Shown piece after piece: positions 4,861-23,533 of a stretch of DNA of 64,000 nucleotides. Source of the DNA: Bacillota bacterium (GTDB taxonomy: Bacteria; Bacillota; Limnochordia; Darwinibacteriales; DTU012); the NCBI GenBank assembly GCA_012840925.1, contig DUVS01000009.1, positions 1 through 64,000 on the forward strand. The letters run 5' to 3'. A program made the translations under genes and the position numbers. The notes under the pieces were generated by a model, which saw only the letters and a program-made list of their open reading frames with translations, made no database searches and was not told the DNA's origin. Positions within the stretch are counted from its first letter, which is position 1. Every line of letters begins with the position of its first letter.

Positions 4861-4966
4861 ATGGAGAAACGAAAAAGGCAAACGTTCCGAAAGGGGCGGA
4901 CGCAAAGCCACGGGTCTAACGTTATTGTTGACAACAATAACCATGATAGCCGGGTTGCCGTTCTAG
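4861..4966 (+). promoter_or_regulatory. Cyclic di-GMP-I (GEMM) riboswitch aptamer
   Basis: The diagnostic GEMM-I elements occur in order: AGGCAAAC at about 4876, CGAAAG, GGACGCAAAGCCACGGGTCTAA, and GATAGCCGGGTTGCCG ending near 4960. A variable hairpin, GTTATTGTT and AACAATAAC with a three-base loop at 4921-4941, lies between the conserved halves, as in the family. An intrinsic terminator follows within 25 bases. The switch therefore lets cyclic di-GMP control expression of the downstream cheW and chemoreceptor genes. Whether the ligand turns them on or off was not resolved. Confidence 0.93.
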
Positions 4967-4982
4967 GCGCAGTAAAGCCTGC

Positions 4983-5024
4983 AAGCCTTTTTCGCTTTTT
5001 AAGCAGAAAAGGGCTTTTTCTTTT
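4983..5024 (+). terminator. Intrinsic terminator of the c-di-GMP riboswitch
   Basis: AAGCCTTTTTC at 4983-4993 pairs with GAAAAGGGCTT at 5006-5016 (one G-U pair), followed by a T-rich run to 5024. Its place between aptamer and coding region makes it the likely expression platform. Confidence 0.8.
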
Positions 5025-5083
5025 AAGTGATCGATAGCAGCTTCGACAGGTCAATATCAAAAGGAGTGAAACAAATTACCAAA

Positions 5084-5593
5084 ATGCAGGTTAAGGATCA
5101 ATTTCGGGTTGATGGTCAATACGTAGTTTTTTCACTTGGAAATGAGAAGTACGGTATAGGAATATCTTCAGTGAAGGAGATCATTAAATGGGAGAAAATA
5201 ACTAGACTCCCCCAGATTGGTGATGAGATCAAGGGTGTCATAAAACTTCGGGATGAAATAGTCCCTGTGATATCACTTCGCAACCATTTCGGGTTGCCTG
5301 AAGTCGACAACATGGAGTGTACAAGGATTATTATTCTTGAGGAAGATGCCATATTGTTGGGAATAATTGTCGATCGTGTTGATGAGGTTGTCACTGTACC
5401 AGAACAAACAATTGAACTACCATCTGGAATACCAGGTATTAGGAGTGATGTGATTCAAGGTATTGCCAAATTTGACGATTGGTTACTTATTCTTATTGAC
5501 ATTAAATGCTTATTTGTTTTAGGCGTGATCGAGCCGTTACACAGTTCACACATTGATGAAACAATCACTGCTATTGACGGGGAGGTAAAATGA
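5084..5593 (+). CDS. cheW: CheW-type chemotaxis coupling protein
   Basis: A cytoplasmic CheW-domain protein of about 169 residues that links chemoreceptors to the CheA kinase. Family features are [13 protein letters not shown] near the N terminus, the conserved RLP and [18 protein letters not shown] strand region, and [10 protein letters not shown]. The start is uncertain. The ATG at 5084 lies 17 bases past GGAG, whereas an in-frame ATT at 5075 sits at the ideal 8-base spacing. Its stop overlaps the start of the chemoreceptor gene (ATGA), implying coupled translation. Both genes follow a c-di-GMP riboswitch, so this receptor-CheW pair is probably part of a motile-sessile switch. Confidence 0.92.
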
Positions 5594-7458
5594 TGCTAAA
5601 GATGCGGAGTATTGCCATGAAAATTGCCGTTTGGGCAGGTTGTTTGATTTTTGTAATGTGTGTCGGGCTGGGAATACTGTCTTACAGTTATGGTTCCTAT
5701 GCAGTTACTGCAGAGGTTGAGCTAGCCCTTAAGATGCAAGCAGAGAAAGCTAGTGAGTACTTGGAGAGTCGATTCGAAACGCATTTGAATGGATTAGAAA
5801 TAATCGCAGCAAGGCCAGAGATGCAGGGTATGGATTGGGGAACACAACTAACAATTCTCAATGCTGAACTAAAACGTTCATCCGCGTTTGTTGCGCTTGG
5901 TGTAGTTGATGGCACTGGAGCTGCGCGGTATACTGATGGTTCCACCGCGGAATTGGGCGATCGTGATTATGTTATTAACGCTTTCAACGGGAATTCGGTT
6001 GTATCCGATATCATTACAAGTCGTGTTGACAATAGCTTAGTTATTATGTACGCCGTTCCGATTCGTAAAGATAACCAAGTAGTCGGTGTATTGCTCGGGA
6101 GGAGAGATGGTACGGTGCTCAGTGACATAACAGATAGATTAGGCTTTGGTGCCCAAGGCTGGGCGTACATTATTGGTAGTGATGGTACGTTTTATGCCTA
6201 TCCTGATAGACAAGTGGTTTTGCATCAAGAGAATATTTTCGACCAGTCAAGTAGATTTATTACAGCAGGACGTGCAATATTGTCTTTCGGTCTTGGGCAA
6301 AATGGTGTGATTAGATACAAACTCGATGATGGTGCGACGAGAATAGTCGGTCTGGCACCCGTCCCCTCTACGGGCTGGACTATTGGTGTCGGGGCAATGG
6401 AAGATGATATACTTGGCAATGTCAACAAACTTCGAATTTTCCTGTTCTGGATCGCACTTGCTTTTATTGTACTAGGTATAGTAGTGTCTGTTCTGATTGG
6501 TAAGCAGCTAGCTAGGCCTCTGAAAAAAGTCCAGGATGTGATCGAAGCTGTTGCTGATGGTGATCTGACTACGAATGTGACAGTTGAATCACGCGATGAA
6601 GTTGGTAGGGTCACCAGGGCTCTGAATGCAACTGTTGAAAGAATGCGTAATGTTATCGGCCTGGTGGCACAAACAGCCAATGATATGGCTGGTATTAGTG
6701 AACAGATGGCAGCAGCGTCGGAAGAAGTCTCATCATCTGTAGAAGAAGTAGCCAGTACCACTAATCAGTTTTCCAGTACTCTGGATTCAATGAATGCTAA
6801 TGCGCAGAACATGAGTCATACGGTGCAGGATGCATCCAACAAAGCATACGAGGGAGAAAAAGCGATTGAAGAGATTATCAAGCAAATGCATATGTTGCGC
6901 GACAATACACAGCAGCTAGCCAATGATGTATCGAATTTGGGCTCTCTTTCTAGTGAAATAGGAAATATCGTGAATATGATTAGTGCAATAGCGGACCAAA
7001 CAAACCTGTTAGCATTGAATGCTGCAATAGAAGCTGCCCGAGCAGGCGAACACGGTCTAGGGTTTGCGGTTGTTGCTGATGAAGTTAGGAAGCTGGCAGA
7101 GGAATCTGCCAAGGCAACTTCCGAAGTAAGGTCGCTCATCACGCAGATTCAGAATGGTATATCGGTGGCTGTCAATGGTATGAACAACAGCGCTAGTGAG
7201 GCTGAGCAAGCACTAGAGAGTGTAGACAGAAGCGGTAAGTTGCTGCATAATATTCTCGGGATGGTAGAAAATATAGCGGGACAGATACAAGCGATCTCTA
7301 GTGGCCTTAAGGAAATAAATGATGGCGGTCACGAGATAGCTTGTGCGACACAGGAACAAGCAGCATCGATGGAACAAGTGGCCAGTTCGGCTCAGGAATT
7401 AACTGAGATTGGCGTTCGATTGAGAGAGTTAGTTGAGCATTTCAAAGTAGAGAACTAA
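5590..7458 (+). CDS. Methyl-accepting chemotaxis protein with dCache sensor
   Basis: A 622-residue transmembrane chemoreceptor. In order: TM1 at about residues 10-32, an extracytoplasmic double-Cache-like sensor at about 35-275 (including [17 protein letters not shown]), TM2 at about 283-305, HAMP at about 305-358, and a long coiled-coil signalling domain. The conserved hairpin tip lies near residues 457-506 and includes [19 protein letters not shown]. No C-terminal CheR-tethering pentapeptide was noticed. The ATG overlaps the cheW stop and follows GGGGAGG. The ligand is unknown; many dCache sensors bind amino acids or other small metabolites. Confidence 0.95.
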
Positions 7459-12737: not shown

Positions 12738-12846
12738 AAGACCAATCATAAATTAAACTCCAAATGACATAGGATAAAAAGATTTTGCAGCTAATGCATA
12801 AAAACAACATACAACCAGACTACAAGGCCAACGGGAGGGTCTTTTG

Positions 12847-13332
12847 ATGTCGATGATCTGCTGCTTCAAAAAAATCCCGGCAAATTTAGTCGAAGGCGAT
12901 TTGACAGCTCTTGAGGAGTATATAGCTGAATTGGACATAGAAGAACTTGCGTTTAGCGATGATCCTGATGGATTATCGCTTGACAAGGCTTGGCACGGAG
13001 TTCACTTCTTGCTCACAGGAAGTTCAATGCCAACGGATGATTTGTTGTCGGACGTCATCATGGGAGGCACGGAAGTGGGCGATGATCTTGGTTATGGGCC
13101 GGCAAGATACCTGAAACCAGAAGAAGTTGCAGCCCTGGCGGAGGGATTGGGCAAGGTTACTCAGGAAGACCTCTACAACAAGTTTTCCCCAGACGGTATG
13201 ACGGATGTTTATCCGGACATTTGGGACGAGGAGGATGCTTTTGAATACTTGCTGGATAATTTCTTTCAGCTGAGCGAATTCTTTATGGCAGCCGCAAAGG
13301 AATACTGCGCCATGTTGGTGTGTGTTGTGTAG
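12847..13332 (+). CDS. YfbM-family protein (DUF1877)
   Basis: A 161-residue soluble protein matching the YfbM/DUF1877 family in length and pattern: a short N-terminal strand, the KAWHGVHFLLTG segment, and GPARYLKPEEVAALAEGL. The family has a known fold but no established biochemical role. GGGAGGG stands seven bases before ATG 12847. It lies alone between glmS and a SAM riboswitch, with no obvious operon partner. Confidence 0.85.
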   Translation: MSMICCFKKIPANLVEGDLTALEEYIAELDIEELAFSDDPDGLSLDKAWHGVHFLLTGSSMPTDDLLSDVIMGGTEVGDDLGYGPARYLKPEEVAALAEGLGKVTQEDLYNKFSPDGMTDVYPDIWDEEDAFEYLLDNFFQLSEFFMAAAKEYCAMLVCVV

Positions 13333-13435: not shown

Positions 13436-13543
13436 TTCTTATCCAGAGAGGGGGAGGGACGGGCCCTATGAACCCCGGCAACCTGCAGTAGTGTAAGGTG
13501 CCAATTCCCGCAGGGAACCGAAGTAAGCCCTGGAAGATAAGAG
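13436..13543 (+). promoter_or_regulatory. SAM-I (S-box) riboswitch aptamer
   Basis: P1 is CTTATC at 13438-13443 paired with GATAAG at 13536-13541. The S-box core follows in order: CAGAGAG, GGAGGGAC, GGGCCCTATGAA, CCCCGGCAACC, then GGTGCCAATTCC and the AAGATAAGAG close. A terminator and a strong ribosome binding site follow. S-box RNAs bind S-adenosylmethionine and usually switch off genes of methionine and SAM metabolism. Here the regulated gene is an unrecognised small protein. Confidence 0.95.
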
Positions 13544-13550
13544 TGATTTT

Positions 13551-13584
13551 GCCTTCCCGGTTTCTCTGGGAAGGCTATTTTTTT
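13551..13584 (+). terminator. Intrinsic terminator of the SAM riboswitch
   Basis: GCCTTCCC at 13551-13558 and GGGAAGGC at 13568-13575 form the stem, followed by TATTTTTTT. It lies between the aptamer and the AAGGAGGG site of the downstream gene. Confidence 0.92.
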
Positions 13585-13600
13585 AAGGAGGGAAGCAGAA

Positions 13601-13798
13601 ATGGATTTTCTGAAGAGAATAACCACCCGGTTTGTCCGGGATCGGATCCAGGAAACTACGTGGGAAAACTGTGCTTATATCAAACATCTCTATCAAGCCG
13701 AAAGGATCATAGCCCGGGGAGGGCCTCACAGTGCATTTGAGGGAATGTTGCTGGCAGGGTTGAAATCAAAATATCCCGTAGAATGTGACTGCATCTAA
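13601..13798 (+). CDS. Small unrecognised protein under SAM riboswitch control
   Basis: A 65-residue ORF directly after the S-box terminator, with an excellent AAGGAGGG site eight bases before the ATG. It is basic and probably soluble, with no signal peptide or membrane segment. Visible features are FLKRITTRFVRD, TWENCAYIKHLYQAER and a C-terminal ECDCI. I recognise no family. The ORF ends in TAA at 13796-13798, but the same frame stays open for 53 more codons with protein-like composition. The gene may therefore be a roughly 119-residue protein interrupted by a nonsense codon. Riboswitch control implies a role tied to methionine or SAM supply. Confidence 0.6.
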   Translation: MDFLKRITTRFVRDRIQETTWENCAYIKHLYQAERIIARGGPHSAFEGMLLAGLKSKYPVECDCI

Positions 13799-13807
13799 GA
13801 TGAGTTA

Positions 13808-13960
13808 ATGGATGGCAAGTACACAACGCCGGAAGAGTTTGCCCGTTTGCAGCAGCAGCGGGATCAACAAAGAGTAGATAAGCTTCTGACTGAGATCCAG
13901 CAAAGGAAACGCCACGAAGCGCATCAGTTGAACCAGTGGTTCCAAGCTGGAGGACAATAG
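13808..13960 (+). CDS. In-frame continuation of the SAM-regulated small gene
   Basis: A 50-residue ORF in the same frame as the preceding 65-residue ORF, starting nine bases after its TAA. It encodes DGKYTTPEEFARLQQQRD, then a helical, charged, Gln-rich C terminus ending QWFQAGGQ. The ribosome binding site is weak. It could be the second half of one gene broken by a point mutation, a translationally coupled second peptide, or the product of stop-codon readthrough. No homologue is recognised. Confidence 0.4.
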   Translation: MDGKYTTPEEFARLQQQRDQQRVDKLLTEIQQRKRHEAHQLNQWFQAGGQ

Positions 13961-14013: not shown

Positions 14014-15897
14014 TTAAACAAAACCCAAAAACCTTACACCCTGAGCCACAATCAAGCAGAGAAAAAACCCTGTGATTGTCGGCACTGCAAACGAGACCCA
14101 AGTCCATTTCCAGCTTTGGGTCTCTTTGTATATTGTCCAGAGAGTGGTACCGCAAGGCCAATGATTGAGTGAAAAGAGTATTGTACACACAGCCGTAAGC
14201 CAAGTCCAACCGTTGTCAACCAGCAATTTGTGCAGTTCGGCCAGATTATCCAGCTCCAGCATCGATCCGGTGGCCAGGTAGCTCATGATCAAAATTGGAA
14301 TTACAGTTTCATTTGCGGGCAGTCCCAGAATAAAGGCCATCAGGATATAACCATCCAGGCCGATCAACCGGGCGAAGGGATCAAGAAAATCTGCACTATG
14401 GGCCAGTAAACTTTGACCGTTGACCAAAACATTGGCCATGATCCAGATTACAACACCGGCAGGTGCGGCGATAGCTACAGCGCGGCCGAGAACATATAAA
14501 GTCCGGTCAAGCAGTGAGCGGACGATTACTTTGCCAATTTGCGGCTTGCGATAGGGCGGCAGTTCCAGGATAAAGGATGAAGGGATTCCTTTGAGAAACG
14601 TAAGCGACAACAGCCTCGAGATAAGCAGTGTGATTACAACGCCTAATACTATGGAAGCCAGTACAAAAAAGGCAGCTGTAAGCGAGCCCAACACTCCGGC
14701 TGAGGCAGCTGTAAAGATCGATACTAAAGCAATGATTGTTGGAAAACGTCCATTGCAAGGTACAAAGTTATTGGTAATAACGGCAATTAGGCGCTCTCTA
14801 GGCGATTCGATGATCCTGCAGGCAGTCACTCCAGCAGCGTTGCAGCCAAACCCCATACACATCGTCAATGCTTGTTTGCCATGAGCACAGGCTTTCTTGA
14901 AATAGTAATCCAGGTTAAAAGCAACTCGCGGTAAATAACCAAGGTCTTCCAGCAGGGTGAAGATGGGGAAGAAGATGGCCATCGGCGGCAGCATCACAGA
15001 CACAACCCACGCCAGTGTCCGGTAACTGCCAAGGACAACCAAATCATGTAGCCAGACAGGGTTTGGCAATCGCATTAAAAAACCAGAAAGCCGATCCTCT
15101 ATCCAGAACAACCAATCAGCCAGCAGTGCTGATGGATAGTTGGCACCGGCGATGGTGATCCAAAAGACTAGGCCGAGCAGGGCCAGCATGATCGGAATCC
15201 CGAAGTGGCGTGATGTCAGTATATTATCCAGTTTGCGGTCAGTTTGGTGGGGTTCTGCTTGTCTGATGCTTACCACTTGGCGGGCAATCTCCTCTGCGGT
15301 TTGCACAATGCTGGCAATAAATTTGTCGTCCTCAGCCGCTGATTTTGCGACACTGCCGTCAGGTGCATGGCTGGCGGCAACTTGAATTGGTTTCAAGGTG
15401 ATAGTGCCACTGACCATCTGCTCAATTGTGTCTTTGAGCTGCTCCAACCCTTTCTTGCTCCTGGCAACTGTCCCGACTACCGGGACTCCCAGCAAATCCT
15501 CAAGCTTTCTTAGATCTAGCTCAATGCCTTTGCGTTTCGCCTCATCGATCAGATTTACACATACAATTACTCTTGGTGTGATGGCCAAAATTTGCAGTAC
15601 CAGGTTTAGATTGCGCTCCAAACATGTTGCATCAGTGACTACGACTGTGGCGTCTGGTTTGCTGTTACAGATGAAATCTCTTGCGATTTGTTCTTCCAGA
15701 GAACTGGCAAAAAGCGAATAGGTGCCCGGCAGGTCCACCAGCATAAAATTTCTACCGTTGTGCGTAAACCTGCCCAGGGCGTTAGCCACTGTTTTGCCGG
15801 GCCAGTTGCCGGTATGCTGGTTGAGGCCGGTCAAACTGTTGAAAATGGTGCTTTTTCCTGTATTGGGATTTCCGGCTAATGCTATGGTGATTGCCAT
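14014..15897 (-). CDS. feoB: Ferrous iron transporter FeoB (system 1, possible Mn transporter)
   Basis: A 627-residue inner-membrane transporter with an N-terminal G domain. GNPNTGKST is the P loop, DLPGTYSL the G3 region and NLID the G4 motif. The membrane part has two Gate-like regions with MGFGCNAAGVTACR and FVPCNGRFPT. These differ from the SGCAIPGVMATR and YVPCGAKLP of the second FeoB at 21.3-23.2 kb, so the two are distant paralogues. The feoA gene lies four bases upstream, and a DtxR/MntR-type regulator is divergent beyond it. That arrangement is consistent with either iron or manganese as substrate. Confidence 0.95.
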   Translation of the reverse strand: MAITIALAGNPNTGKSTIFNSLTGLNQHTGNWPGKTVANALGRFTHNGRNFMLVDLPGTYSLFASSLEEQIARDFICNSKPDATVVVTDATCLERNLNLVLQILAITPRVIVCVNLIDEAKRKGIELDLRKLEDLLGVPVVGTVARSKKGLEQLKDTIEQMVSGTITLKPIQVAASHAPDGSVAKSAAEDDKFIASIVQTAEEIARQVVSIRQAEPHQTDRKLDNILTSRHFGIPIMLALLGLVFWITIAGANYPSALLADWLFWIEDRLSGFLMRLPNPVWLHDLVVLGSYRTLAWVVSVMLPPMAIFFPIFTLLEDLGYLPRVAFNLDYYFKKACAHGKQALTMCMGFGCNAAGVTACRIIESPRERLIAVITNNFVPCNGRFPTIIALVSIFTAASAGVLGSLTAAFFVLASIVLGVVITLLISRLLSLTFLKGIPSSFILELPPYRKPQIGKVIVRSLLDRTLYVLGRAVAIAAPAGVVIWIMANVLVNGQSLLAHSADFLDPFARLIGLDGYILMAFILGLPANETVIPILIMSYLATGSMLELDNLAELHKLLVDNGWTWLTAVCTILFSLNHWPCGTTLWTIYKETQSWKWTWVSFAVPTITGFFLCLIVAQGVRFLGFV

Positions 15898-21272: not shown

Positions 21273-23225
21273 TCAACTCCTTGAATCAGCTGCCAGGTTC
21301 AATGCCTGACGTTTGGCAGCTGTGCTCTTGATTTTAATAAACAGGAATATGCCCAAGACGGCTCCAATCACAATTGCTGCCGGCATACCTGGTGCTGGAG
21401 TTTTGTATAAGACCAGTGATCCGATTTGAGAAATCAGCATTGCCAATGTGTAACCAACACCGATTTGGAATAAAAGCCCTTTCCACAACCATTCTGATCC
21501 CAATTCACCTTTCATGGCTCCAATTGCGGCGAAGCAGGGAGGGGTGAAGAGGTTAAACACTAAAAAAGCGTAGGCGGTGACAGGGTTAAACAGCTGTGCC
21601 AATGAGCCGCCTGGCGTGCTCAGCACGCTTTCAGCAGCTGCGCCAAGCAAAATGGCCAAGGATGAAACAACATTCTCTTTGGCCACGAAGCCGGTGATCG
21701 CCGCAGCTCCCGGCTGCCAGCCAGACAAACCCAAAGGGGTGAGAACGACTTCCAGTACTGAGCCGATGGTTCCAAGCATGCTTTGACCCTGATCGGCAGC
21801 TGGCTGCAAGATCCAGTTGTATTCCTGCATCAGCCACACCAGAGTATTCATGACCAGGATAATGGTGGCAGCCTTATAGATAAAGGCCTTCGAATGCCTC
21901 AACATCTGGTTTACAGCATATTTCAAGCTTGGCTTTTTATATTCCGGAAGCTCTAATATGAATACTGAAGTGCTATCCCACAGGAAAAGCTTTTTCAGCA
22001 GCAATCCACCGATAACAATCACAAGAATTGCCAAAATATACATGCTTGGAGCTACCCAACTGGCGTTAGGGAAGAATACGGTTGCAAAGAGGGCAATTAT
22101 CGGCAGTTTTGCGCCACAAGGCACATAGGGTGTAAGAATTGTGGTTATGCGTTTTTCATTCACATCTTCAATGGTGCGTGTTGCCATAACACCAGGGATG
22201 GCACAGCCAGAACCGACAATCATGGGGATGATCGATTTTCCGGATAAACCAATACGCTTGAAATGCCGGTCCATAATCAAGGCTACCCGGGCCATGTAAC
22301 CGCTGTCTTCCAAAAGTGCCAGGCAAAAGAACAGCACCATGATTAAAGGCAGAAAACCGATTACAGCGCCTACACCAGCGACGACACCTTCCAAGATCAA
22401 GTTGTGCAGAAAGGGGTGAATATCAAGGGCTGACAGGAAATTATCAGCTGCTGTGGGAACAACTTCGCCAAACAGCGTTTCATTGAAGTAGTCGGAAAGG
22501 AAGCCCCCTAATCCTTCAATGGAAAAAGCATAAACCGCCCACATTACCAAAAAGAAAACAGGCAGTCCAATCCACTGATTGGCAAGAAAGCGATCGATTC
22601 GATCCGACCTACGGACCTGCTTTAAGTTGTCACCTTTGACAACAGATTTAGCAGCGATCTTTTCAACGAGCTTGTGCCGCTTAAGAATCTCTGCATCGCT
22701 AATGACGGGTATGGTCAGTTTCTGTGGCTGCTTAGCCACTCTTACCGCAGCTGCAAGCAGGGCAGGAAGCCCCTCAGCTTCTGTTGCGGTAATGGGGATA
22801 ACAGGGCATCCCAGTTCCACTTCCAATTGTTCAATGTTGACTCGGTCTTTACGTTCTTGCACGATATCATATTTATTCAGGGCAATGACTACAGGGATGC
22901 CCAATTCCAATAGCTGTGTCGTCATAAACAAACTGCGTTCAAAATTGGCCCCGTCCACAATATTGATAATCACATCGGGATGCTGCTCAACTATAAAATC
23001 CCGGGTAATAGCTTCTTCAGATGTGTAGGGAGTGATAGAATAGGCACCGGGCAAATCAATGACTATGATTTCTGTATCAAAGGTATTATATTTGCGTTTC
23101 AGCTTTGCAGCCTTTTTTTCAACAGTCACACCGGACCAGTTGCCTGCGGATTCCGCCTTGCCTGTCAGCTCGTTGTAAAGAGTTGTTTTACCGCAGTTTG
23201 GATTTCCAGCAAGTGCTATGCGCAT
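21273..23225 (-). CDS. feoB: Ferrous iron transporter FeoB (system 2)
   Basis: A 650-residue GTP-driven Fe(II) transporter. The G domain shows GNPNCGKTTLYN, DLPGAYSITPY and NKYD. The membrane core has VGSGCAIPGVMATRTI and YVPCGAKLP with the conserved Gate cysteines, the usual FeoB arrangement. ATG 23225 (MRIALAGNPNC) is preferred to 23255 because GGAGGG lies upstream of it and homologues start there. It is operonic: feoA2 lies upstream and the Cys-rich partner downstream. A Fur-box-like site precedes the operon, so it is likely induced by iron limitation. Confidence 0.97.
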   Translation of the reverse strand: MRIALAGNPNCGKTTLYNELTGKAESAGNWSGVTVEKKAAKLKRKYNTFDTEIIVIDLPGAYSITPYTSEEAITRDFIVEQHPDVIINIVDGANFERSLFMTTQLLELGIPVVIALNKYDIVQERKDRVNIEQLEVELGCPVIPITATEAEGLPALLAAAVRVAKQPQKLTIPVISDAEILKRHKLVEKIAAKSVVKGDNLKQVRRSDRIDRFLANQWIGLPVFFLVMWAVYAFSIEGLGGFLSDYFNETLFGEVVPTAADNFLSALDIHPFLHNLILEGVVAGVGAVIGFLPLIMVLFFCLALLEDSGYMARVALIMDRHFKRIGLSGKSIIPMIVGSGCAIPGVMATRTIEDVNEKRITTILTPYVPCGAKLPIIALFATVFFPNASWVAPSMYILAILVIVIGGLLLKKLFLWDSTSVFILELPEYKKPSLKYAVNQMLRHSKAFIYKAATIILVMNTLVWLMQEYNWILQPAADQGQSMLGTIGSVLEVVLTPLGLSGWQPGAAAITGFVAKENVVSSLAILLGAAAESVLSTPGGSLAQLFNPVTAYAFLVFNLFTPPCFAAIGAMKGELGSEWLWKGLLFQIGVGYTLAMLISQIGSLVLYKTPAPGMPAAIVIGAVLGIFLFIKIKSTAAKRQALNLAADSRS

Positions 23226-23251
23226 ATCCCTTAAACCCTCCATATTGGTAA

Positions 23252-23533
23252 TCAAAGCTGCGCCTGTTTACTATCTCGATGGGGATGATTTAGATTGTCA
23301 TCTTCTATTGTCTGCTCAACGCTGCCCAGCTCAATGATCTGGGCCGTTTTGCGGTCAATGGCAAAGCGGCTGTCCTTGATCCGGACTAGGTAATTACCTG
23401 CCAATATAGAGATCAGCGTGACCTTTTCCCCCGGATAGCAACCGATGGAGTAGAGAAAGCGCTGCACTTTTTCCGTTCCCGCAACGTTGTTGATGATTCC
23501 TTCGCATCCTATTGCCATTTCTGATAAACGCAT
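23252..23533 (-). CDS. feoA: FeoA domain protein (system 2)
   Basis: A 93-residue FeoA SH3-like protein, first gene of the second feo operon. MAIGCEGIINNVAG, FLYSIGCYPGEKVTLISILAGNYLV and DSRFAIDRKTAQII fit the family. It has a polar C-terminal tail after the domain, unlike the FeoA of system 1. AAGGAAGG stands nine bases before ATG 23533; a TTG at 23539 is also in frame but too close. Confidence 0.93.
   Translation of the reverse strand: MRLSEMAIGCEGIINNVAGTEKVQRFLYSIGCYPGEKVTLISILAGNYLVRIKDSRFAIDRKTAQIIELGSVEQTIEDDNLNHPHRDSKQAQL

Follow-up and report, generated by a model that had tools for sequence, protein, structure and literature searches.

The window, by which we mean the whole stretch of 64,000 nucleotides that was analysed (contig DUVS01000009.1), most probably carries a recently broken copy of a small protein family that is controlled by a SAM-I riboswitch. 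The original prediction, made from the sequence of this locus, had left three readings of the interrupted frame side by side: a new SAM-linked protein family, a recent pseudogene, or a case of readthrough or coupled small peptides. Comparison with related sequences supports the first for the family as a whole, the window copy excepted as broken, since about 20 relatives were found, most of them directly behind a SAM-I riboswitch and none matching a known family. The second is upheld for the window copy itself: the relatives encode an amino acid where the window has its stop, the half beyond the stop keeps the motifs of the family, and the genus shows decay at this locus. The third did not survive, as described below.

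SAM-I riboswitch and expression platform

The features of the locus, all on the forward strand, are as follows.

13436-13543, +, SAM-I (S-box) riboswitch aptamer, full length (cmscan against RF00162)
13551-13584, +, intrinsic terminator hairpin and T-run of the expression platform (predicted folds; similar hairpins in most relatives)
13585-13592, +, ribosome binding site AAGGAGGG, 8 nt before the ATG (read from the sequence)
13601-13798, +, 5' half of the gene, 65 codons and TAA, the N-terminal helical half of the family
13796-13798, +, in-frame TAA
13799-13960, +, 3' half of the gene, 53 codons and TAG, the charged helix and C-terminal W-x3-GG
13808-13960, +, mechanical second ORF with an ATG start that is not conserved in relatives

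The aptamer matches RF00162 with 87.6 bits (E 2e-19) over model positions 1-108 of 108, and is therefore above the gathering threshold of 44.4 bits over its whole length. It is the only SAM-I element in the assembled genome (1.72 Mb, 94% complete), whose metK gene is not preceded by one. The terminator hairpin (-19.3 kcal/mol) is followed by T7, by the ribosome binding site and by the ATG at 13601, so that aptamer, terminator and ribosome binding site are all intact, as had been predicted. When the transcript was cut at 13568, the 3' strand of P1 paired with the 5' arm of the terminator in an antiterminator-like predicted fold. The choice between the terminator and pairing with the P1 3' strand is the usual switch geometry of SAM-I, and the folds predict that the window platform is able to switch in this way. 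With plentiful SAM, the P1 helix of the aptamer would be stabilised and the terminator would end the transcript ahead of the gene; with little SAM, the P1 3' strand would pair into the 5' arm of the terminator and the gene would be read. The leader RNA probably responds to SAM as its ligand, and expression of the gene is expected at low SAM, this being the direction in which SAM-I terminators are established to act.

Two reading frames, one gene

The 65-residue frame ending in TAA and the 53 codons that continue it in frame, up to the TAG at 13958-13960, are both present as originally described. An open run of at least 53 codons follows 10% of the TAAs in the window, and the length of the run is therefore no proof by itself that the two parts belong together. 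A family profile built from 18 relatives, with the window left out, matched the two halves separately, with E 4.5e-25 before the stop and E 6.9e-8 after it; among the 1838 six-frame peptides of the window, the best match after these two halves reached only E 1.2. The N-terminal half is 60% identical to its counterpart in G003, a genome of the window's genus. Inspection of the codon at 13796-13798 in relatives, which had been proposed as a check, showed a sense codon in all 20 aligned sequences. Since the relatives have sense codons at this position and both halves match the profile, the two ORFs are two halves of one gene. It had been considered that the ORFs might prove to be separate proteins, or that the downstream frame might not be conserved; instead, the relatives have one protein in one continuous frame with its downstream part conserved, and none of them has a Met aligned with the start of the second ORF (ATG 13808).

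A family of small helical proteins

A search of 61 related genomes with the 65-residue query detected homologues in seven other genomes, each located just behind a SAM-I riboswitch. With the full-length profile, the family was found in 10 of the 73 genomes of the window's class and in 18 of 398 genomes sampled across the phylum, as well as in 8/12 genomes of the class of G148 and 4/17 of the class of G295. The intact proteins form one all-helical chain of about 118-131 residues. Their N-terminal half carries the motif IxTxFVRDRxKETxW...YI...E...P-x-E-x-x-x-I, followed by a charged helix and the C-terminal W-x3-GG. Where two intact copies were similar enough for the measurement, dN was well below dS (0.04 versus 0.226 for G380/G313, and 0.141 versus 0.472 for G425/G456), and the family gene is therefore normally protein-coding and constrained; these substitution patterns show purifying selection on it in the intact relatives.

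The statement that the target is no known methionine or SAM gene also stood, because no convincing match to a known family was obtained in Pfam, NCBIfam, PHROGs or PDB sequences. The match of the post-stop half to SDA1_dom (E 1.2e-4, below the cut-off of that model) and the weaker Pfam and NCBIfam matches were regarded as coiled-coil or composition noise. An origin as a phage, plasmid or defence gene was likewise rejected: viral contigs, phages and plasmids gave no match, and the PADLOC search gave weak scattered matches only, the best with E 0.004, in two members. AlphaFold2, run on the intact G033 relative with an alignment of 8 rows, one of them the window frame read through its stop, gave a confident model (pLDDT 89.4) with helices at residues 2-6, 10-18, 21-38, 45-57, 59-71 and 77-115; yet no Foldseek match of this model, whether in the PDB or in viral libraries, was better than E 0.56, and a known fold was rejected. 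No neighbouring gene recurs across distant relatives, the shared neighbours being mostly confined to genera, which argues against conserved operon partners. No paper on the family was found among literature titles and abstracts.

Association with the riboswitch

All copies in the window's class lie behind a SAM-I riboswitch except one remnant without it, and the copies in the class of G295 are likewise preceded by SAM-I. The protein is present without SAM-I in the class of G148, as it is in families f76/f86. SAM-I and non-SAM-I copies are largely apart in the family tree, with weak support (54/76).

Upstream of the gene in G103 (L054), a truncated-looking SAM-I can be observed, in which the 5' part of the aptamer is followed directly by a terminator-like hairpin ahead of the gene. 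This element scores below the Rfam threshold, its truncation being read from the sequence, and is an apparent SAM-I fossil. Several of the non-SAM-I copies (L057, L059, L065, L066) show by eye a short GGCGTA-like stretch some distance before the start, which is possibly promoter-related.

Decay of the locus and origin of the stop

The gene is in decay at several stages within the window's genus. In G003 the riboswitch and the N-terminal half are kept, and the C-terminus is lost and replaced by an unrelated tail. In G004 there is a frameshifted remnant without the N-terminus and without the riboswitch, beside feoB and behind short glmS remnants. In G001 and G002 the similarity to the window beside the feoB orthologue ends at the end of feoB, in both nucleotide and translated comparisons. 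The genus thus shows a riboswitch outliving its gene and then being lost along with it. Elsewhere, the gene of G029 has two in-frame TAGs at positions other than that of the window's TAA, and in G405 (L064, 1498 onward) 24 N-terminal family residues are fused in frame to a peroxiredoxin-like protein behind SAM-I, the whole product measuring 245 aa; this is either a deletion fusion or an assembly chimera. Judging by the TAGs of G029 and the fusion of G405, breakage of the family gene appears to be recurrent.

The nonsense codon at position 66 would stop translation halfway, so that at most a 65-residue fragment would be made; the window copy has presumably lost its function, and its RNA switch would be left regulating a broken target. 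With 18 of 20 strongly conserved columns intact in the N-terminal half and 7 of 8 in the C-terminal half, the break must be young. The same preservation bears on the main rival to the pseudogene reading, namely that an error in sequencing or assembly, or a minority variant, accounts for the stop, the organism itself having an intact SAM-I-controlled gene. The sequence comes from a draft metagenome-assembled genome, the break is made by a single codon, and nearly all conserved residues are kept on both sides of it, all of which weigh against a broken copy. However, the independent decay at the same locus in G003, G004, G001 and G002 fits gene loss in the genus. Moreover, the post-stop half is somewhat more diverged from G033, G032 and G013 (0.70-0.76) than these three are among themselves (0.52-0.68), although its motifs are kept; synonymous sites are saturated. 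We consider an error unlikely on this evidence, though it deserves to be kept in mind.

Because the pre-stop half is so well preserved, a functional 65-residue product can also be envisaged, perhaps with reinitiation at ATG 13808, just beyond the stop, giving a second peptide; G003 of the same genus also has the N-terminal half without the usual C-terminal half. This is improbable, as on the G033 model the stop interrupts predicted helix 59-71 and the product would lack both the long helix at 77-115 and the conserved W-x3-GG, the start at 13808 has no counterpart in relatives, and G004 has only a remnant. Readthrough of the stop, or recoding of TAA or TAG in these organisms, could draw on the two in-frame TAGs of G029, but it is very improbable, since those stops lie elsewhere, none of the aligned relatives has the window's stop, and long frames in the window terminate equally often at the three stop codons (16 each for TAA, TAG and TGA), with no sign of codon reassignment.

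Relation to known systems and possible role

Few riboswitch regulons are as well studied as those of SAM-I. The window resembles them (RF00162) in its full-length aptamer, its terminator-type platform, and a ribosome binding site and gene on the same strand; it differs in that the gene falls outside the known methionine and SAM families and is interrupted. The other SAM-I elements of the relatives precede metNIQ-like transporter genes and O-acetylhomoserine-sulfhydrylase-like genes (names given by eye from translations). Regulatory RNAs may outlive the reading frame of their target, and pseudogenes that keep an upstream regulatory RNA are a general kind; here, several stages of the decay can be seen within a single genus. 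Various genes under SAM riboswitches have been assigned generally to cysteine and methionine metabolism (PMC3766115), and the genes of unknown function under such riboswitches that are described in the available part of that paper do not include the window family.

As the role of the protein is read from its riboswitch association, we suggest only tentatively that the intact protein acts in the cytosol, as a helper or a regulator, when SAM or methionine is limiting; its presence without SAM-I in the class of G148 and the lack of a neighbour shared by distant relatives speak against such a role. Equally speculative is the wider view that an undescribed, all-helical small protein, made at low SAM, might take part in the SAM homeostasis of poorly cultivated Bacillota as a new regulator or accessory factor, which two or more classes have placed under SAM-I and which has been lost repeatedly. 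A conserved SAM-I target that is none of the known genes for methionine, cysteine or SAM offers a testable lead into SAM physiology, for which the intact relatives rather than the window copy are the material for functional study.

Other features of the window

Just upstream of the riboswitch lies a DUF1877 gene (12844-13332, +; Pfam E 4.4e-37). The window contains two FeoB-like genes, at 14014-15897 and at 21273-23255 (-), the second being 31% identical to the first. A c-di-GMP-I-GGC riboswitch (4868-4963, 71.4 bits) precedes two ORFs named by eye, one CheW-like (5027-5593) and the other chemoreceptor-like (5590-7458), and the region 4868-7458 looks like an ordinary c-di-GMP-controlled chemotaxis operon.
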